A stretch of DNA of 64,000 nucleotides from contig JAFYOX010000089.1 in NCBI GenBank assembly GCA_017547755.1, positions 27,326 to 91,325 of the forward strand, given 5' to 3'. Shown here piece by piece: positions 1,146 through 59,599 of this stretch. Every line of letters begins with the position of its first letter. Positions within the stretch are counted from its first letter, which is position 1. The position numbers and the translations under genes are program-made. The notes under the pieces are model-generated. The model was not told the DNA's origin and ran no database searches. It was given only the letters and a program-made list of their open reading frames with translations. The stretch comes from Clostridia bacterium. GTDB lineage: Bacteria; Bacillota; Clostridia; Oscillospirales; CAG-272.

Positions 1146-2255
1146 GTGAACGATAAGGTCAACAGAAAACTGCTTGCCGCATCCGGCATTGCCGCCGTGA
1201 TCTTCGCGGTCAGCGCGCTTCTGCTCGGCATTCTGGAACTGACCGTGTCCGGCATCTCCGGCTCGATCGATTTTCTCGATGCCGGGGAACGCTGGTCGTC
1301 ATCCGGTGACCGGTTTGCCGTCATCACGCTGTATGCCGAGGAAAGCGCGGCAATGTCCGGCGATCAGGTCAAATCATGGGTGCGCGGCATCGATGCGAAA
1401 CTGCTTGAATCCTCCGTTGCGCCGAACGAAAACGCCAGATCGTGGGCATACACCTACGCCGCCGAAGAAACCATGACCGTCTACGGTCCGAAGGACAAGG
1501 CGACGGCGGAGGTGATCGCGGCAGGCGGAGACTTCTTCGTCTTCCATCCGCAGATGTTCGTCTACGGATCGGCATTTCTGAACGATGAATCCAACCCGAA
1601 CGGCGTGGTCATCGACGAAGACCTCGCATGGAAGATCTTCGGTGCGACCGACATCGTCGGCATGGAAATGACGGTGGACGGCGTCCCGTTCACCGTGACC
1701 GGCGTCAGCCGCCGGGCTTTTGACCGCGGGATCTACGATTACACTTACGGAGAGCGTCCGCGGATGTACATGAGCTACGCCGGATACGTCAAACTGCGCG
1801 GTGACGGGGAGCATATCACGATGTTCGAGACCGCTCTGCCGAATGCCGTCCGCGGCTTCGCGCAGAATATCTTCAGCAGTGCCGTTACCGCCAACGAGGA
1901 AACCATGAGCGTCATGGAAGCCTCCGACCGGTTCTCGCTCATGAACCGGTACGCGAATATGAAAATTCTGAAATATTCGTGGATCCGCGAAAATAAAATT
2001 GAGTATCCCTACTGGGAAAACGAAGCGCGTACCGCCGATTTCCGCTGTGCGATCCTCATGATCTTTGAGGTGATCCTTGCGGCGGCAGCGGTCTCTTCCA
2101 TGCTCGTATCCTTTGTTCTTCTGCGTTCCTCCGGCTGGACCGTGACGGACAGCGTGAAGAATCTGTATTCAAAATCCAGCAAAAACCAAAGAAAAAAACG
2201 GCGTACACCGCCGGAAAATCCGCAGAATATCCGAAGAAAGAGGGGAAATCCATGA
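1146..2255 (+). CDS. Short MacB-type ABC transporter permease (periplasmic core domain)
   Basis: I chose GTG 1146 because a GAAGGTGG Shine-Dalgarno sequence ends 7 bp upstream; GTG 1137 is an alternative. The protein is about 369 aa. A transmembrane helix near residues 7-32 (AASGIAAVIFAVSALLLG) is followed by a ~260-residue extracytoplasmic domain resembling MacB_PCD (for example GVVIDEDLAWKIFG, typical of MacB-like permeases). One more helix lies near residues 300-330, followed by a lysine/arginine-rich tail. Standard MacB/FtsX permeases have four helices and ~400 or more residues, so the last two helices appear to be missing; the tail shows no obvious frameshift remnant. It lies between the HlyD-like adaptor and the solute-binding lipoprotein, overlapping the latter by 4 bp (ATGA), so all three are probably translated together. 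No ATPase gene is visible; it may lie upstream. Confidence 0.7.
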   Translation: MNDKVNRKLLAASGIAAVIFAVSALLLGILELTVSGISGSIDFLDAGERWSSSGDRFAVITLYAEESAAMSGDQVKSWVRGIDAKLLESSVAPNENARSWAYTYAAEETMTVYGPKDKATAEVIAAGGDFFVFHPQMFVYGSAFLNDESNPNGVVIDEDLAWKIFGATDIVGMEMTVDGVPFTVTGVSRRAFDRGIYDYTYGERPRMYMSYAGYVKLRGDGEHITMFETALPNAVRGFAQNIFSSAVTANEETMSVMEASDRFSLMNRYANMKILKYSWIRENKIEYPYWENEARTADFRCAILMIFEVILAAAAVSSMLVSFVLLRSSGWTVTDSVKNLYSKSSKNQRKKRRTPPENPQNIRRKRGNP

Positions 2256-4693
2256 GAAAATACTCTGTGAAGAAAATTGCATCCGCGGCGCTTGCCGTAG
2301 TGATGGCGGCTTCCTCGCTGACCGCCCTGTCGTCATGCGGAAAAAAGGAACCCGTGAAGGAAAAGCGAACCAACGTCTACAGCGGCATCGAGATCACCCT
2401 GCCGGAAGGCGTGGACTATGTCCAGAATCTGTTCCATGCAGGGGAAAATATCTGCATGATGTACAACAAGGTGTTCACCATCACCTACAACGAATCCGGC
2501 GAGGAAGTCGGACGTGTTCCCGGATACCAGTGGGATAGCGAAGGGCTGCAGGACGGCTGGTGGCAGGACTACCAGACCTCCAACTATGTTGCGACCCTGG
2601 ATTCCGCATCCGGTGAGATCAGCGAAGTGAAGATCGACGTGATCCAGAACGATACCGGCAACAGCTATATGCACAGTATGCGCGGCGGTGCGGACGGCAC
2701 CGCATGGGCGCTGATTAACACCTGGGAATATGCCGATGACTATTCATGGTCACGGAACACCTACACGCTCCGCGCGGTCGATCCGGTGAGCGGTGAAATG
2801 AGCGAAGGCGTCCTTCTCAACGACGCTCTGCTGAATGCCGGAATCGACGAAGCGAATATGTACATCAACAATTTCGTCGTTACGGAAGCCGGTAAGATCT
2901 ATCTCAGCACCGATACCTGCATCGTCGGCGTCGACCGGAACGGTACCTTCAAGGAAAAGATCCAGCTCGATGAAGACGGCTGGATGAACGGTATGTTCGC
3001 ACATGGCGAAAAGCTCTACACCCTGTTCTATCCCAACAGCGGAAGTCAGAAGCTCAAGGTGATCGAAGACGGCAAGATCACCGACATTTCCACTGAAACG
3101 CTCAAAGACATCATGCAGGCGGCGTACAGCTTCTACGGATTCTCCGATACGAAGATGTACTACAGCACCAATTCCGGCATCCATGTCTATGACTTTACCA
3201 CCGACACCACGGCGGAACTCATGAACTACATCAATTCCGACGTGGATTCCGGCAGTACCGGCAGTGCGGTGGTTCTTCCTGACGAACGGATCGCCATCGT
3301 GCAGACCGACTGGAGCAGCGATGTATCGACGAACACTGTGGCTCTTCTCAGCCGTGTGCCGGACGAACAGCTTCAGGAAGAGATCATTCTCGATCTCGGC
3401 TGTCTCTACAGCGATTATTATCTCACCAAGGCGATCATCAAGTTCAACAAGCAGAACACCGGCGTCCGCATCTCCGTGCGTGACTACTCGCAGTACAACA
3501 ACGAGGACAACGAATGGAAGGGCGCATCGATCCAGTTCAACAACGACATCGTGACGGGCAATGTACCGGATATCGTTCTTCTCAGCTCCGAACTTCCGGC
3601 GGAAAGCTACTTCCAGAAGGGACTGTTTGCCGATCTGTACAGCTTCATGGATGATCCGGAGATCGGCGTCAGCCGCGCGGATTATCTGGAAAACGTTCTG
3701 AAGGCGTGTGAAGTGGACGGAAAGCTGTACTCCATGATCCTTTCCTTCACGCTCAGCACGCTTGCCGCAAAGAGCGAATTTGTCGGCACCGAATCCGGCT
3801 GGACGCTCGCCGAAATGATGGAAGTGATCCGGAATATGCCGGAAGGTATGTCCGCGTTCCTCGAATATTCCCGTCAGAATGTGCTCGAAAACTTCTTCTC
3901 CTACTCGATGGATACGTTCGTCAACTGGGAGACCGGTGAGACCTATTTTGAAGACGAAGGCTTCGTGGAATTCATGAAATTCCTTGAAACCTGCCCCGAA
4001 AAGGGATTCTGGGAAGCGATGTATCCCGATGACGGCACCGAATACGTCTACGATGAAGAACTGGAAAAGGAATACTACCAGAAGTATGACCTGCGTTTCT
4101 ACAAGGATTATTCGCTGTTCAGCATGGCGAATATTTCCAACTTCACCCGTATCATGAACGACCGCGGCATGTTTGCGACCAAGGATATCACCTACATCGG
4201 CTTCCCGACGAACGATGAATCTTCCAACGGTGCAACGATCCTGCCGCAGGCGGAACTGGCGGTCAGCGCACAGTCCCTCGCACAGAGAGAAGCGTGGAGC
4301 TTCATCAAGTTCGTTCTGAACGATGAAACCTACAACGCGAATACCTGGGCGTTTTCGACCAACCTCCGCCGTCTGGAAGAAAAGAAGGCGAAGGCTGCCG
4401 ACGATTATTATTACTACGAACAGACCGAAGACGATCTCGCATGGTACAAGGAATACTATTCGGAAGAATACTTCCAGTACATGCTGACCCGCAACCAGCC
4501 TCTTGATGAATCCACCATCGATCAGACGATGGACATCATCAGGGGAGCGTCCAAGGTCCAGCGCAGCGACAGCGCCCTTCTTGATATCATCAACGAAGAA
4601 CTGTCCGTCTTCTTCTCCGGCACCCGCTCCGCCGAAGAAACCGCAAAGATCATCAACAGCCGCGCAAGAATTTATGTGAGCGAAAATTCATAA
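2252..4693 (+). CDS. Large extracellular solute-binding lipoprotein (beta-propeller-like N-domain)
   Basis: This 813-aa lipoprotein has a signal peptide ending in the lipobox LSSC, with Cys29 as the lipidation site. Residues ~35-365 contain repeated beta-strand units with aromatic and glycine turns that look like a beta-propeller sensor or ligand platform. From ~375 on (IILDLGCLYSDYYLTKAIIK onward) the sequence resembles family-1 sugar-binding proteins: residues such as GNVPDIVLLSSELPAESYFQ and QREAWSFIKFVLNDETYN are characteristic of SBP_bac_1. It is about twice the length of a normal binding protein. Its start overlaps the upstream permease stop (ATGA), giving translational coupling, and a strong terminator follows. 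No sugar-permease genes are nearby. The substrate cannot be deduced. Confidence 0.8.
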   Translation: MRKYSVKKIASAALAVVMAASSLTALSSCGKKEPVKEKRTNVYSGIEITLPEGVDYVQNLFHAGENICMMYNKVFTITYNESGEEVGRVPGYQWDSEGLQDGWWQDYQTSNYVATLDSASGEISEVKIDVIQNDTGNSYMHSMRGGADGTAWALINTWEYADDYSWSRNTYTLRAVDPVSGEMSEGVLLNDALLNAGIDEANMYINNFVVTEAGKIYLSTDTCIVGVDRNGTFKEKIQLDEDGWMNGMFAHGEKLYTLFYPNSGSQKLKVIEDGKITDISTETLKDIMQAAYSFYGFSDTKMYYSTNSGIHVYDFTTDTTAELMNYINSDVDSGSTGSAVVLPDERIAIVQTDWSSDVSTNTVALLSRVPDEQLQEEIILDLGCLYSDYYLTKAIIKFNKQNTGVRISVRDYSQYNNEDNEWKGASIQFNNDIVTGNVPDIVLLSSELPAESYFQKGLFADLYSFMDDPEIGVSRADYLENVLKACEVDGKLYSMILSFTLSTLAAKSEFVGTESGWTLAEMMEVIRNMPEGMSAFLEYSRQNVLENFFSYSMDTFVNWETGETYFEDEGFVEFMKFLETCPEKGFWEAMYPDDGTEYVYDEELEKEYYQKYDLRFYKDYSLFSMANISNFTRIMNDRGMFATKDITYIGFPTNDESSNGATILPQAELAVSAQSLAQREAWSFIKFVLNDETYNANTWAFSTNLRRLEEKKAKAADDYYYYEQTEDDLAWYKEYYSEEYFQYMLTRNQPLDESTIDQTMDIIRGASKVQRSDSALLDIINEELSVFFSGTRSAEETAKIINSRARIYVSENS

Positions 4694-50581: not shown

Positions 50582-52681
50582 TTATTTCGTTTCCGTGCAT
50601 ACGACTGCCAGACTGTGCGGCGGCAGAACCACTTCGGCTGTACCGTCCGCATAGCGGACTTCAAGTTCGCGGATGTCGAAGACCGTGCCGGGAACCACAT
50701 CCTCGGAGGTATACAGCTGTGCCGAGATCACGCTGCCGCAGTTGTTCAGCGTGAATTTTTTCGGCTGATCGAACGAGCGGTTGAGAAGCGTGGTGGTAAC
50801 GGTTCCGTGCTTGCAGGTGGACGTGACGTCTTCTGCGAGCGCGCAGATCATGCCGTTTGCGTGACGGTTCATGACCGAGAAGACCTGTCCCGTCGGAGAA
50901 AGGCGCGCTTTGTCCGGGAAGACCTGGATCGCACCTTCGTTGACCGATTCAAAGTGGCAAGCCATCATGACGCCGTAACGGTCAGCGTTGCGGAACAGCA
51001 TATTCTGGAATGCCGCCGCCATGATGCCTTCGGTAACACTGCCGCTGCGGTACCACGCATACCATGCGTTCCATTCGTCGTAGGAAATTTTCACGACGCT
51101 GTCGCCGAGCTGTTCCCGGAGGATCCGCATCCGCGGCTGGAATTCGGTATCCACCTTGCGGATGAAGTTTTCGTACTCTTCTTTCCGCTTATCGGGATCG
51201 ATGTATGCCGGATATCCCGCATAATGGTGCAGGGAAACGGCGGCGGCGACGTCGGAAAGTGCCTTTGCGGAGTATTCCGCCCATTCCTTGTTCGGATACG
51301 GACCGGAGGAACAGAGCGTGAGCCCGGGCGATACTTCCAGCATCTTCACGGCGTGTTCGCGCACCAGCTTCGCATAGGCGTCCGCCGTATTGGCGCCTTC
51401 CATGTGGCCGTATCCCATTTCATTGCCGAGAGACCAGAACTGGACATTGTACGGCTCCGGATGACCATTTTCCGCGCGCTTTCTGCCGTAAGGCGTGGAT
51501 TCGTCACCGTTGCAGTATTCCACCCAGTCGGCACTGTCTTCCGGAGAGTTCCATGTCGGATTGAGCGTGATGAACGGTTCCGCACCGATTTCCCGGCAGA
51601 GTGCGATGAAATCGTCGGTATTGATCTCGTGGAAATCGTAGCCTCCCGAATGCGGCTGGGTTTCCAGCCACAGATAGGACTGGAACGGTGCACGCATATT
51701 GCGGGGAAGAAGTCCGTCTTTCCAGTGATATTCACCGGCGAAGTTGCCGCCCGGCCAGCGGAGCAGCTTGATGCCGAGTTCCTTGATCCTTTCGATGACG
51801 TCCGTACGCATGCCGCGGAAATTGTTCTGCGGCAGAAGGGACATGGCACCGATCATGACCGTGCCGACCGTGTCAAACGTCACTTCCAGCCGCGCCTCCG
51901 GATCTTCTTTGGGAGAATGAAGCGTCACGGCAACTTCGCGGTAATCGCCGGGATCGGCGGAGAAGGTCTTGCTGTCATAGACCGTCCGGTCGGAGCCGAT
52001 GAGGGAAACGGTCAGTTCATTGCCCGAGAAGGAACGGACAGCCGCCGTGAAGATATAATCGGTATCCGCGAGCAGGCAGAGATCCTTCTGACCCATGCCG
52101 GTGCGGACAGGCGCATAATTGGTGATGTACTGCGCATTCTGTTCGTGACTGCGGCGCATTTTGTAGCCGTCCCCGTGACGGGTGTACGGACTGCCGAACG
52201 CCATGACGGGTCTTTCACCGACGGCGTACCATTCGTGCGCACAGCCGTAACGTCCCGGCTTGCCGGTGAATTTCCGGTTCCGCAGGAGTTCGGCGGACAG
52301 ACCGCCGTAAATACAGCCGCGGGTATGTTCCAGATTATCCCCGAACAGCAGGGGAGAAATGGACTGGGATGCCGTGTAATCGAGCGTCACGGTGACGTCG
52401 GCTTCCGGTGCTTCCGGCGCATCGGATGCGGCAGGAATGTCCATGGGAAGATTGCTGGAGTGAGAGGGATCCGGCTGGGAACCGTTGACGATGTCGGAAA
52501 TACTGCATCGGAACAGGATCGCCATGTTCTTCAGATTGTCGATATCCGGACAGGCAAGACCGCGTTCCCATTTGGAGACCGCCTTGTCGGTTACGGAAAG
52601 AAAGTCGCCGAGCGCCTGCTGGGACAGATTCAGACGTTTGCGCGCTTCCTGGATGAAGGAACCGGTTTTCTGCATATTCAT
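50582..52681 (-). CDS. XRE-type HTH domain fused to GH51 alpha-L-arabinofuranosidase
   Basis: This is a single 699-aa frame. ATG 52681 has GAGGT 7 bp upstream; a longer ATG at 52699 is possible. Residues 5-65 are a Cro/CI helix-turn-helix (FIQEARKRLNLSQQALGDFL, then VTDKAVSKWERG). A Pro/Ser/Ala-rich linker (67-96) leads to a full GH51 enzyme: LLFGDNLEHTRGCIYGGL, LRWPGGNFAGEYHWKDGLLP, acid/base Glu421 in WSLGNEMGYG, HHYAG, and nucleophile Glu536 in ISYDEWNAW, with the C-terminal beta domain. All catalytic residues are intact. The gene is divergent from a PfkB/GH4/PHP operon 200 bp away. A regulator that hydrolyses or only senses its arabinoside ligand is the natural proposal; that is inference. 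Confidence 0.9.
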   Translation of the reverse strand: MNMQKTGSFIQEARKRLNLSQQALGDFLSVTDKAVSKWERGLACPDIDNLKNMAILFRCSISDIVNGSQPDPSHSSNLPMDIPAASDAPEAPEADVTVTLDYTASQSISPLLFGDNLEHTRGCIYGGLSAELLRNRKFTGKPGRYGCAHEWYAVGERPVMAFGSPYTRHGDGYKMRRSHEQNAQYITNYAPVRTGMGQKDLCLLADTDYIFTAAVRSFSGNELTVSLIGSDRTVYDSKTFSADPGDYREVAVTLHSPKEDPEARLEVTFDTVGTVMIGAMSLLPQNNFRGMRTDVIERIKELGIKLLRWPGGNFAGEYHWKDGLLPRNMRAPFQSYLWLETQPHSGGYDFHEINTDDFIALCREIGAEPFITLNPTWNSPEDSADWVEYCNGDESTPYGRKRAENGHPEPYNVQFWSLGNEMGYGHMEGANTADAYAKLVREHAVKMLEVSPGLTLCSSGPYPNKEWAEYSAKALSDVAAAVSLHHYAGYPAYIDPDKRKEEYENFIRKVDTEFQPRMRILREQLGDSVVKISYDEWNAWYAWYRSGSVTEGIMAAAFQNMLFRNADRYGVMMACHFESVNEGAIQVFPDKARLSPTGQVFSVMNRHANGMICALAEDVTSTCKHGTVTTTLLNRSFDQPKKFTLNNCGSVISAQLYTSEDVVPGTVFDIRELEVRYADGTAEVVLPPHSLAVVCTETK

Positions 52682-52809
52682 AATGTGCACCTCTTTCATG
52701 AAATTTTCAGATACCTTATTATATCATAAATTCGGCGGAAAATCATCCTCTGTGTTCTCGACTGTTGGTTTACTTTTGGTTTTCGGAAGCGGTTCTGCCC
52801 GCGTGTTCC

Positions 52810-52838
52810 TTGACACGGTTCGCACGGTATGTTATAAT
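52810..52838 (+). promoter_or_regulatory. Sigma-A promoter of the PfkB/GH4/PHP operon
   Basis: TTGACA (52810-52815), a 17-bp spacer and TATAAT (52833-52838) lie 43 bp before the start. On the other strand a TATAAT (52723-52718) with a weak -35 may serve the HTH-GH51 gene. Confidence 0.87.
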
Positions 52839-52881: not shown

Positions 52882-53820
52882 ATGGATATGCAGAAAAAAT
52901 GGGACGTTTATGTATACGGTGACGTAAACATCGACCTCGTTGTCCCGGGTGTGGAAAGCCTTCCGGATCCCGGCTCCGAAGTGGATGTACCGATTATGGA
53001 AACCTTTGTCGGCGGCGGTGCGGCGCTGTTCACGCTCGGACTTGCCAAGCTCGGACTGACCCCGGTCTTCCAGGGCAGCATCGGCAGGGATATGTACGGA
53101 GAATACATCCGGAATCTTTTCCGTGAACTCGGCGTGGACGACAGCCTTCTCCTGGACAGCGACACGAAGAAAACCGGGATCTCCATCAGCTTCACGACGG
53201 AAAAGGACCGCTGCTTCCTGACCTACCGCGGAACCAACGAAGGTCTTTCTCTCAAATATATGGATCTTGAACAGCTTCGGTATGCGAAGCATGTCCATGT
53301 CACCGGCTACGAAGGTGCGACCAACCATGCGGAATACCTTGACATCCTCACGAAGATCCACGAAATGGGCGACGTGACCGTTTCCTTTGACGTGGGCTGG
53401 GATATGACCGGCGTATGGTACGAAGGAATTTTCGATCTCCTTCCGATGATCGACGTTCTCTTTATGAACGAAACCGAATGCCAGCATTACACCCGCTGCG
53501 ATGACATTGAAACCGGTGCGCGCAAACTGGCGGAAAAGGCAGGTATGGCAGTCATCAAGCTCGGCAAGCAGGGCGCAATGGCTGTCCGCGACGGCGAAAA
53601 GTTCTTCGCTCCTTCCTACAAGGTACAGGCGGTCGACACCACCGGTGCGGGGGATTCCTTCAATGCCGGCTTTATCTACGGCTTCCTGCAGGGACTTCCG
53701 ATGGAAGAATGTCTGAAGTGCGGCAACGGCTGCGGTTCGCTGTCCGTCACCAAACTCGGCGGCAACACCGGCTTCCCGTTCCGTGCGGAACTGGAACAGT
53801 GGATCCGCGATCACGAATAA
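52882..53820 (+). CDS. PfkB-family carbohydrate kinase
   Basis: This 312-aa ribokinase-fold enzyme phosphorylates a sugar or nucleoside using ATP. Family motifs are GGGAALFTLGLAKLGLTPVF with GxIGRDMYG (residues ~44-73) and the anion-hole/catalytic DTTGAGDSFNAGF with Asp258. The start is ATG 52882 or ATG 52888; AAGGAG lies 4 bp or 10 bp upstream respectively. It is the first gene of a tight operon (13 bp to GH4, then overlap) that faces the HTH-GH51 regulator. Which sugar it phosphorylates is not shown; a GH4 enzyme next to it suggests phosphorylated glycosides are intermediates. Confidence 0.9.
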   Translation: MDMQKKWDVYVYGDVNIDLVVPGVESLPDPGSEVDVPIMETFVGGGAALFTLGLAKLGLTPVFQGSIGRDMYGEYIRNLFRELGVDDSLLLDSDTKKTGISISFTTEKDRCFLTYRGTNEGLSLKYMDLEQLRYAKHVHVTGYEGATNHAEYLDILTKIHEMGDVTVSFDVGWDMTGVWYEGIFDLLPMIDVLFMNETECQHYTRCDDIETGARKLAEKAGMAVIKLGKQGAMAVRDGEKFFAPSYKVQAVDTTGAGDSFNAGFIYGFLQGLPMEECLKCGNGCGSLSVTKLGGNTGFPFRAELEQWIRDHE

Positions 53821-53832
53821 GGAGAAAAATCA

Positions 53833-55203
53833 ATGAAAATCGGCGTTATCGGCGGCGCAGGTGTACGCACCGTCATCTTTATCAACGGACTTCTCAAGCG
53901 ATATAAGAAACTGAATATCGACGAAGTCGTTCTCTACGATATCGACCACGAAAAGCTTTCCGTGATCGGCAAGCTCTGCCGCCATGTCGTAAACCGCGAA
54001 GGCAAGGATCTCACGGTCCGCGAAGTTTACACGGCGGAAGAAGCCATCCGCGGCATGGACTACATCGTTACCACGCTCCGCGTCGGCGGCGACCATTCCC
54101 GCGTGATCGACGAAGCCACCGCTCTGAAAAACGGCGTCATCGGTCAGGAAACCACCGGTGTCGGCGGATTCTCCATGGCAGTCCGCACGATTCCCGTTCT
54201 TCTGGACTACTGCGAACTCATCGCAAAGTATGCGCCCGACGCATGGGTATTCAACTTCACCAATCCGTCCGGTCTCGTTACGCAGGCTCTGCACAATGCG
54301 GGACATCACCGGATCATCGGGATCTGCGACGCTCCCAGCAGCATGAAATACCGCATGGCACAGCTTCTCGGCGTCACCGAAGAAGAACTGTACGTGGAAT
54401 TCTTCGGTCTCAATCATCTCTCCTGGATCCGCAGCGTGCAGGTCAACGGCAAGGAGATCATGCCCGAACTGATCGCGGACGACAACTTCCTTTCCGGAAT
54501 TCAGGAACTTGAAATTTTCGACCGCGACGTCATCCGCAAGACCGGCATGCTCCCGAACGAATATCTCTATTATTATTATCACCGCGAACGCGCACTTGCA
54601 AACATCAACAAGTCTGAAATGACCCGCGGTCAGACCATCGAACTGGTCAACATCAAAATGATGGAAGAACTGAAGGCGATGGATATCGATGCAGATCCCG
54701 AAGAGGCTCTGCAGATCTTCCTTTATTATATGCAGCTCCGCGAAAACAGCTATATGTCCATCGAATCCGGCTCCGCGAACCGTCCGATGCTCGAAAAGGG
54801 AAGTCTTCCCGTTCCGGAAGGCATGGGCTATGCCGGCGTCATGCTCGACTGCATCGAAGGCATGCAGAGCGAAGAAGGACGTACGCTTGTCCTGAGCATT
54901 CTCAATCAGGGATGCATCCCGTTCCTGAGCGACGAAGATGTGGTCGAAGTCACCTGCAATGTTTCGAAAAACGGCATTGCTCCCGTGAAGCAGACCGAAA
55001 TCCCTGCGATGTGCGAACTGTATATCCGCCTGATCAAGCATTACGAACGCCTGACCGTGGAAGCGGTCCGCGAAGGAAGCGAAGACAAGGCAGTCACCGC
55101 GCTGATGACCCATCCGCTCATTAATTCCTATTCTCTCGCAAAGAAACTGATCGAAGACTACAACGAAGCCTACGGCGAAAAGATCCTTGGAGGAACCCGA
55201 TGA
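53833..55203 (+). CDS. GH4-family NAD-dependent 6-phospho-glycosidase
   Basis: This is a 456-aa enzyme that cleaves glycosides by a redox-elimination route needing NAD+ and Mn2+. The Rossmann start MKIGVIGGAGVRTVIFINGL, the NFTNPSGLVTQALHNA segment, the metal-binding Cys165 in GICDAPSS and the GLNHLSW segment (Asn194, His195) are diagnostic. The length is normal. Members act on 6-phospho-alpha- or beta-glucosides, alpha-galactosides or glucuronides; the sequence does not decide between them. The stop overlaps the start of the next gene by ATGA, so the two are translationally coupled. Confidence 0.92.
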   Translation: MKIGVIGGAGVRTVIFINGLLKRYKKLNIDEVVLYDIDHEKLSVIGKLCRHVVNREGKDLTVREVYTAEEAIRGMDYIVTTLRVGGDHSRVIDEATALKNGVIGQETTGVGGFSMAVRTIPVLLDYCELIAKYAPDAWVFNFTNPSGLVTQALHNAGHHRIIGICDAPSSMKYRMAQLLGVTEEELYVEFFGLNHLSWIRSVQVNGKEIMPELIADDNFLSGIQELEIFDRDVIRKTGMLPNEYLYYYYHRERALANINKSEMTRGQTIELVNIKMMEELKAMDIDADPEEALQIFLYYMQLRENSYMSIESGSANRPMLEKGSLPVPEGMGYAGVMLDCIEGMQSEEGRTLVLSILNQGCIPFLSDEDVVEVTCNVSKNGIAPVKQTEIPAMCELYIRLIKHYERLTVEAVREGSEDKAVTALMTHPLINSYSLAKKLIEDYNEAYGEKILGGTR

Positions 55204-58303: not shown

Positions 58304-59599
58304 TCAATATACGGCGATGTCACGGATCTTTGCGCTGCCGGCTTCGGCAGTGATCTCGAACGTGACCGTTCCGGCTTCCAGCGATTCGAAGGGAACGATC
58401 CGCTTGTGTCCGATGCACTGGCTTTCATAGACCGGAACACCGTCGGCAAGGATGCGGAATCCGCGGATCTGCTGACCTTCCGTGATATCTTCGCGGATCA
58501 CGACATACTTTACCTGCCGCTTTTCCGGAAGAGCGAGCGTGCAGCATCCGTCCGTCAGTACCGGAGCCTCCGCCATGGCTGGCGGTTCGGAGAATGTGTC
58601 GCGGATGAGTTTCCCGAACGCCTTGAACTGTTCTTCGTCCTGGAAATCTCCGTCCGTGCTGATCGACATGCCGAGCAGAAGATTGGAGTTTCTGCCGACC
58701 GAGCGGATGTAGCAGTCGAGGAGCTGTTCCGGCGTGTACAGCAGATGTTCCTCGCCGGCTTTCCATCCCCATCCGCCGCCGAATGCGGCGTGGGTACGGT
58801 TGGGCATATCGGTTTCCGCCGGCCAGTAATATTTGCCGTCCGGATCGCCCACACCGGCTTTTTCGTCCGGGATGGTGCCGTCATACCGTGCTTCACCGGC
58901 ATTGGTGGTTGCCCAGCAGTTTTCCGGAGCCAGACCGTTTTCGTTGCCGACCCAGCGGATGTTGTGCGCGTAATCGCGCGGACCCTGGAAGCAGATCGCC
59001 TGCGGCTGATACTTCCGCAGAAGGGGCGTCAGGTCTGGACCGCCCTGTTCCGGCGGAATGATGCCGCCGTCGAACCAGATCTCGAACAGTTCGCCGTATT
59101 TCGTCCAGAGCTCCGTGACCTGTGCTTCCACATTGCGGACGTAGTCCTGATAATATTCGGAACGGTAGTCCCATTTCCAGTTGTCATTGATGTTGTAGTA
59201 TCCGTTGCATCCGGTGGAGTAGTAGAAGCCGGGACGGAGTCCGTATTTTTTACACGCTTCGATGAATTCCAGACAGATGTCACCGCCGCCTCCGCGCCAG
59301 TCGGTCGACGCGATGGAGAAATCGTTGACTTTCGTGTTCCAGAGCGAAAATCCGGTGCAGTGATTGGTCACGAGGACTGCGTATTTCGCACCCATTTCCG
59401 CCGCACTGCGTACCCATTGTTCGGGATCCAGCTTCGTCGGGTGAAGGGTTTCCGGAGCGATCTCGGTGCGGACCGCGTTGGTCTTGTACCAGTCGCCGCC
59501 CAGATCGGGACGATAGATCTCGAGGCAGTAATGGATCAGAACGCCCAGTTCCATGTCCTGCCACGCAAGCTGTTCTTTGGTCGGTTTTGCCGTGTACAT
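58304..59599 (-). CDS. GH29-family alpha-L-fucosidase
   Basis: This is a 431-aa cytosolic enzyme. GH29 marks: MELGVLIHYCLEIYRP near residue 16, GAKYAVLVTNHCTGFSLWNT, and the nucleophile Asp177 in GELFEIWFDGG. A C-terminal beta domain (last ~80 residues) follows a short barrel. Length is about that of compact GH29 members without a lectin module. It removes alpha-linked L-fucose from plant or host glycans. GGAGG precedes ATG 59599. It has its own promoter and is divergent from the isomerase operon. Confidence 0.9.
   Translation of the reverse strand: MYTAKPTKEQLAWQDMELGVLIHYCLEIYRPDLGGDWYKTNAVRTEIAPETLHPTKLDPEQWVRSAAEMGAKYAVLVTNHCTGFSLWNTKVNDFSIASTDWRGGGGDICLEFIEACKKYGLRPGFYYSTGCNGYYNINDNWKWDYRSEYYQDYVRNVEAQVTELWTKYGELFEIWFDGGIIPPEQGGPDLTPLLRKYQPQAICFQGPRDYAHNIRWVGNENGLAPENCWATTNAGEARYDGTIPDEKAGVGDPDGKYYWPAETDMPNRTHAAFGGGWGWKAGEEHLLYTPEQLLDCYIRSVGRNSNLLLGMSISTDGDFQDEEQFKAFGKLIRDTFSEPPAMAEAPVLTDGCCTLALPEKRQVKYVVIREDITEGQQIRGFRILADGVPVYESQCIGHKRIVPFESLEAGTVTFEITAEAGSAKIRDIAVY

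Follow-up and report, generated by a model that had tools for sequence, protein, structure and literature searches.

Trigger enzymes such as PutA, NadR and BirA combine an enzyme and a transcription regulator in one polypeptide, and to our knowledge no glycoside hydrolase is found among these three. AraC-type regulators with a GH39-like domain exist in databases; a single strict literature search, in which all terms were required, returned no paper, a result that is compatible with their existence. No HTH-glycosidase regulator appeared among the matches listed in the open-licence PMC literature, and a passage search of PMC10766802 found no 'XRE'. The nearest precedent for the gene described here is BzdR, an XRE domain joined to a shikimate-kinase-like domain, which represses catabolic genes (PMC3602430). 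The authors of that report hold that loss of enzyme activity was essential for the enzyme domain to become regulatory, and an active synthetic chimera, Q1, showed no induction in vivo because its catalysis prevented de-repression (PMC3602430), an outcome that weighs against the sensor reading proposed below.

The window analysed here, a stretch of 64,000 nucleotides from a gut bacterium, encodes a fusion that shares with BzdR an N-terminal XRE helix-turn-helix (HTH), a linker and an enzyme-derived C-terminal domain, and that resembles PutA, NadR and BirA in carrying an enzyme and a predicted regulator on one chain. The two fusions differ in that the enzyme domain of BzdR is inactive, whereas the catalytic residues of the window's protein are invariant, and in that BzdR is of the kinase type, whereas the window's protein carries a GH51 module whose second substrate is only water (PMC3602430). 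Because the C-terminal domain is GH51 rather than a shikimate-kinase-derived effector domain, the protein may work like BzdR without being a member of the BzdR group. Judged from sequence, and set beside BzdR (PMC3602430), the surprising part is that the catalytic residues are kept. A natural fusion, repeatedly gained or lost and with its catalytic residues intact, puts the claim that activity loss is essential within direct reach of a test: if an enzyme cannot act as a sensor while active, selection must keep the two jobs together for another reason.

We hold, with slightly better than even confidence, that the gene encodes an autoregulating one-component repressor whose sensor is an arabinosidase with intact catalytic residues, and whose DNA binding is loosened by arabinosides. 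Taken separately, the fusion is probably a DNA-binding autoregulator, and its enzyme domain is a likely sensor, since relatives keep both halves and most of them keep a matching upstream site, which makes the enzyme half the probable sensor of the switch. From these features we infer DNA binding, repression in preference to activation, a response to ligand and enzyme activity. The XRE domain, probably as a dimer, would bind GTAAACC-N7-GGTTGAC-like sites across the -35 region, and the bound protein would repress its own gene; in some relatives its targets would also include arabinofuranosidase genes and the gene of a putative solute-binding lipoprotein. Repression would ease when an arabinoside occupies the active site and weakens the hold on DNA, and would return once hydrolysis has removed the inducer.

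The gene (Table 1) translates into 699 residues with zero internal stops, as the first-pass annotation had read it, and a ribosome-binding-like GAGGTG lies 5' of the start codon at 52681; a second in-frame ATG, at 52699, is likewise open. Its N-terminus belongs to the XRE/HTH_3 family, with a match to HTH_3 (PF01381) at residues 10-63 (E 3e-11, 43.6 bits against a Pfam cut-off of 23) and, among PDB sequences, a match of residues 1-68 to the P22 C2 repressor (1adr, E 2e-06). The segment VTDKAVSKWERG (residues 30-41) we take to be that of the recognition helix, the DNA-contacting helix being assigned from the fold. P22 C2, DicA and RstR are of the same HTH family, and a promoter-overlapping operator is predicted for the fusion; it differs from these repressors in that its C-terminal part is a glycosidase, and it scores only 39.8 against 80 with the RstR model and 36.2 against 101 with that of DicA. 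Because the N-terminus is an HTH, the enzyme should be cytoplasmic.

The enzyme part matches the alpha-L-arabinofuranosidase 1 domain ASD1_dom (PF22848) at residues 382-421 (E 2.7e-07, 30.8 bits against a Pfam cut-off of 22.2) and the GH51 enzyme 3ug3 at residues 284-610 (E 2.8e-47, PDB sequences), and a 54-row profile matches 3s2c at 2.1e-62, which places the barrel in GH51. The first-pass claim that both catalytic glutamates are present was borne out by alignment to solved GH51 enzymes, in which Glu421 falls on the acid/base glutamate of GNE and Glu536 on the nucleophile of DEW, and both are unchanged in 54 of 54 aligned homologues. The protein thus has the barrel and the GNE/DEW glutamates of GH51 alpha-L-arabinofuranosidases such as 3ug3 and 1qw9, but it is distant from them: the PDB matches span the enzyme part only, Alpha-L-AF_C (PF06964) falls slightly below its cut-off (E 3.8e-05, 24.4 bits against 27, Pfam), and its score with the ArfA model of NCBIfam is 146 against 625.

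Table 1. Positions of the fusion gene, its parts and the adjoining features in the window
Feature	Position	Strand	Basis or remark
XRE-GH51 fusion gene	50582..52681	minus	699 codons and stop; gut bacterium
HTH domain, about residues 1-68 (Pfam match 10-63)	52478..52681	minus	Pfam and pN/pS
Variable linker, residues 69-98	52388..52477	minus	Highest pN/pS among six regions (0.36)
GH51 module, about residues 99-699; barrel about 285-545; catalytic Glu421, Glu536	50585..52387	minus	Pfam, PDB alignment
Operator-like site GTAAACCAACAGTCGA, 0 mismatches	52758..52773	minus	Pattern match; in an imperfect 11-bp direct repeat (AAACCAAAAGT/AAACCAACAGT)
Extended -10 box TGA-TATAAT of the fusion gene	52718..52723	minus	40 nt from the start of AGTCG, against 29 nt in relatives
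Divergent sigma-70-like promoter TTGACA-17-TATAAT, PfkB gene	52810..52838	plus	Read by eye
PfkB-family sugar kinase gene, divergent	52882..53820	plus	Not found adjoining other fusions
GH4-family gene, second of the divergent run	53833..55203	plus	Not found adjoining other fusions

Matches at E <= 1e-30 occur in 22 of 59 related genomes and are mainly ordinary GH51 genes; a scan of genome contigs retained 80 of 86 confirmed loci. The HTH is present at 17 of the 107 loci with a usable best frame, which reduce to 13 distinct genes because several were obtained twice, and a fourteenth fused gene, L236, was discovered later via its operator. Two fused genes apiece are found in genomes G014 and G059. 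Recurrence of the same join at these loci rules out an assembly error or the sequencing error that the first-pass annotation had allowed for. The annotation had suggested that the fusion be sought in other Clostridia. It had also counted homologues without the HTH against a one-component sensor; such homologues are common outside the fused lineage, and in the window's own clade 11 of 11 rows are fused, including L041 with a truncated HTH. In L041 (1-217) the initial part of the HTH is gone near a contig end, and the residues upstream of the truncation resemble, by eye, the tail of a serine recombinase, pointing to insertion or misassembly.

Constraint on the HTH is equal to that on the catalytic barrel, and the linker is not so constrained. 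Among five close members (10 pairs), for which nearly saturated synonymous sites make the values relative, the HTH (residues 1-66) has a mean pN/pS of 0.124 and the barrel one of 0.115, with 0.046 at residues 27-47; the mean is 0.162 at residues 99-284, 0.243 in the C-terminal part and 0.358 in the linker.

On a tree of 81 GH51 rows, the label 'fused' changes at least three times, and the starred branches force three. A single fused clade was rejected by the AU test (p-AU 1e-58 with the 13 fused rows held together), and so was the pairing of L088 and L013 alone (p 0.0003); both apply to a set of 51 rows, 31 of 82 having been dropped earlier as near-copies or distant rows, and the rejection holds under the model. 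The architecture has thus been gained or lost repeatedly. One gain plus several HTH losses may account for the same pattern, and because the HTHs of L088 and L013 agree at 63% over 84 residues, losses or domain transfer are quite possible. In L046, a MobA/MobL relaxase gene (1782-3347, E 4.7e-83) lies directly upstream of the XRE-GH51 gene, a hint that the module is mobile.

Upstream of the fused genes an operator-like site, GTAAACNNNNAGTCG, precedes an extended -10 box and overlaps the -35 region. In a comparison of 300-bp upstream regions that leaves out L041, L236 and the fragment L047, counts some unfused loci twice and is partly circular because the pattern was taken from fused genes, the site occurs with up to one mismatch before 8 of 12 fused genes and before none of 74 unfused homologues; the scan of 394 genomes described below is free of that circularity. 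Counted over the 11 fixed bases, mismatches in the fused genes number zero in five, one in three, two in one, three in one and four in two, and in the unfused upstream regions two in one and three to five in the other 73. The four mismatches of L088 and L180, fused genes outside the window's clade, are at the level of shuffled sequence, and the three of L045 were matched by 58 of 200 shuffles. The site stands before 7 of 13 fused genes when the long pattern is used and one mismatch is allowed. Across the genus and six further genomes, all 10 sites with up to one mismatch among the matches listed (complete for the genus) lie at XRE-GH51 or sister XRE fusion loci. In 818 kb around 80 loci counted as unfused, DNA in which the window's HTH as query found no XRE gene, the long pattern at up to two mismatches occurs once, in L047, where it precedes a gene whose product starts like that of the GH127 gene of L042.

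The spacing of the site is also conserved. The distance from its start to the -10 box is 39 nt in nine window-clade genes, as it is in L125 and L175, the figure for L042 and L045 being a reading by eye where the script picked another -10; L088 and L180 fit the same spacing if read one base later, with the left arm missing. By eye, the AGTCG-to--10 spacing is identical in 11 of 12 fused genes. The window's own spacing is 50 nt, which sets the site 11 bp, about one helical turn, too far from the -10 and counts against the repressor reading; the right arm of this site is also poor. Relative to the divergent PfkB promoter, the site is placed 36 bp upstream of the -35. Across 23 sites, entered by hand from upstream readings, the arms read GTAAACC-N7-GGTTGAC, with a mean dyad symmetry of 3.22 of 7; shuffling the right arms gives 1.80, and 0 of 2000 shuffles reach the observed value. 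When only the 13 GH51-fusion sites are considered the dyad is weak (2.69, compared with 1.74 after shuffling, and reached by 4 of 2000).

A scan of 394 genomes of the order with the long pattern, one mismatch allowed, gave 10 matches, while the reversed pattern gave 6. Four of these 10 matches stand before XRE genes, namely an XRE-PfkB gene (L231), the new XRE-GH51 gene (L236), and L237 and L238, whose XRE proteins resemble membrane proteins by eye and carry no sugar enzyme; the remaining six do not precede an XRE gene. Among these, the gene behind the site looks by eye aldo/keto-reductase-like at L230 and permease-like at L233, and there is nothing convincing at L232 and L239. L234 and L235 (G100 and G282) have a one-mismatch site and a TTGACA before acetyltransferase-like genes that look similar by eye. 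A recognised XRE helix is present at 8 of 30 loci of PfkB relatives fetched with L231, and in four of those eight (L240, L241, L242 and L245) the dyad reaches 10 of 14 or more and is accompanied by an exact TATAAT at the same spacing, as against 0 of the 22 others, which include one, L244, that is probably fused too, from its match span. A dyad of at least 11 of 14 accompanies the helices VTDKAVSKWERG, ITDKAVSKWERG or VSNK-VSKWERG; the other XRE genes scanned reach 10 at most, and some genes with a VTDK helix, the window's included, are lower too. The matches before other XRE genes, XRE-PfkB included, and this pairing of dyad and helix suggest that the site follows the HTH, not the enzyme.

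As to targets, the first-pass annotation had proposed a one-component sensor controlling the divergent operon. The sensor draws support from the retained HTH-GH51 fusion and from the operator-like site before most fused genes, but the operon (PfkB gene at 52882, GH4 gene at 53833 and onward, plus strand) was not found beside any of the 12 other fused loci, among which the upstream flank is about 1.5 kb or less in L038, L039, L041, L042, L043 and L012, and its role as a conserved target is unsupported, which counts against the reading favoured here. Out of 18 window frames compared with these 12 loci, only 58307-59599 (minus) matched, the matches being fucosidase-like genes in L044 and L045. 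A putative solute-binding lipoprotein, likened by eye to ABC solute-binding proteins and without a match in Pfam (four proteins) or NCBIfam (two proteins), adjoins 6 of 13 fused genes (L038, L043, L044, L046, L088 and L180). In five of these loci its gene lies downstream on the same strand, with a frame that begins no more than about 150 nt away; the L038 gene is convergent, and a separate copy of the site is located 87 nt ahead of it. The unfused gene L019/L093 is also followed by a lipoprotein gene, and the family has 57 matches in the 3-Mb assembly of the window's genome (G000), the best just 36% identical, alongside about 40 HTH matches. In L042 another GH51 gene (PF06964, E 1.4e-47) comes after the fused gene, and beyond it a second copy of the site leads into a gene for an exported GH127 protein (domain E 7.9e-52).

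The position of the site bears on whether the fusion would repress or activate. The site centre falls near -41 to -43, with the site overlapping the -35, and about -41 to -43 is also the class II activator position, from which the bound protein could contact RNA polymerase and raise expression of its own gene and its partners. Window-clade promoters have poor -35 hexamers (TACAAA, TACCAT, CACCAA), and the window's own site, about one helical turn upstream, would be better tolerated by an activator than by an occluding repressor. A TGN, however, precedes the -10 in all 10 window-clade promoters read and lessens the need for a -35, and the TTGAC of a good -35 lies inside the site in L088, L175, L240 and the second L042 copy; because the right arm contains this part of the -35 in several promoters, occlusion is favoured, and activation seems to us unlikely.

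Slightly less probable still is a DNA-tethered enzyme without sensing, in which the HTH merely sets the protein's own level and the sugar is no signal. Autoregulation by itself would account for the site, which also stands before the two XRE genes without a sugar enzyme, and the 14-mer core of the window's site is the sole match at up to one mismatch in its 3.05-Mb assembly (about 75% complete), where the reversed-pattern control gave 8. What such an enzyme would leave unexplained are the second sites before the lipoprotein gene of L038 and the GH127 gene of L042, and the recurrence of XRE domains on other sugar-related enzymes. That the join is non-functional, with the HTH a passenger taking no part in DNA binding, we regard as very improbable: unfused homologues are common and L041 lacks the first part of its HTH, but the HTH is as constrained as the barrel, and the site accompanies the fusion and was not found with unfused homologues. 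The autoregulating repressor with an enzymatic sensor is the reading that we retain.

The same kind of XRE domain is found on other enzymes. XRE-PfkB fusions (L139, L231 and L240-L248) occur in several families of the order, part of them with the same operator; PfkB is matched at E 1.6e-34 in L139 (1501-2712) and at E 3.9e-28 in L231 (195-1454, minus). In L176 (G059:C57:16300-18600) the frame 216-1772 joins an XRE domain to a Gfo/Idh/MocA oxidoreductase (E 3e-10). Neither this gene nor the XRE-PfkB gene of L139 was seen to have the operator in front of it. The operator does precede L125 (1246-3459) and L175 (2-1552, minus), in which an XRE domain is followed by an enzyme-like region of about 660 residues, and whose HTHs are among the nearest paralogues of that of the GH51 fusion. 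Assignment of this region to GH127 was rejected, the match (E 0.071) lying below the cut-off and BLAST against a true GH127 giving no useful match (E 0.21). Lipoprotein-family frames lie directly after L125 (162 bits) and L176 (26.7 bits, a weak match cut by the locus end).

It is conceivable, at somewhat under even chances, that a single XRE cassette with its -35-overlapping GTAAACC-N7-GGTTGAC operator has been joined to several sugar enzymes in Oscillospirales-like gut bacteria, yielding a class of regulators in which the enzyme that uses up a sugar is also its sensor, so that the signal clears itself. The enzymes concerned would be GH51, PfkB kinase, the enzyme-like region and perhaps Gfo/Idh/MocA, with catalytic residues considered for GH51 only. 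The site also supplies a predicted operator for a group of XRE regulators in gut Clostridia. The window's genome holds about 39 XRE genes besides the window's own, and 29 whose open frame reaches at least about 290 codons were read; most of the 29 have, by eye, long C-terminal parts like those of TPR-type sensors, and the one given to a domain scan, L156, returned the HTH match alone.
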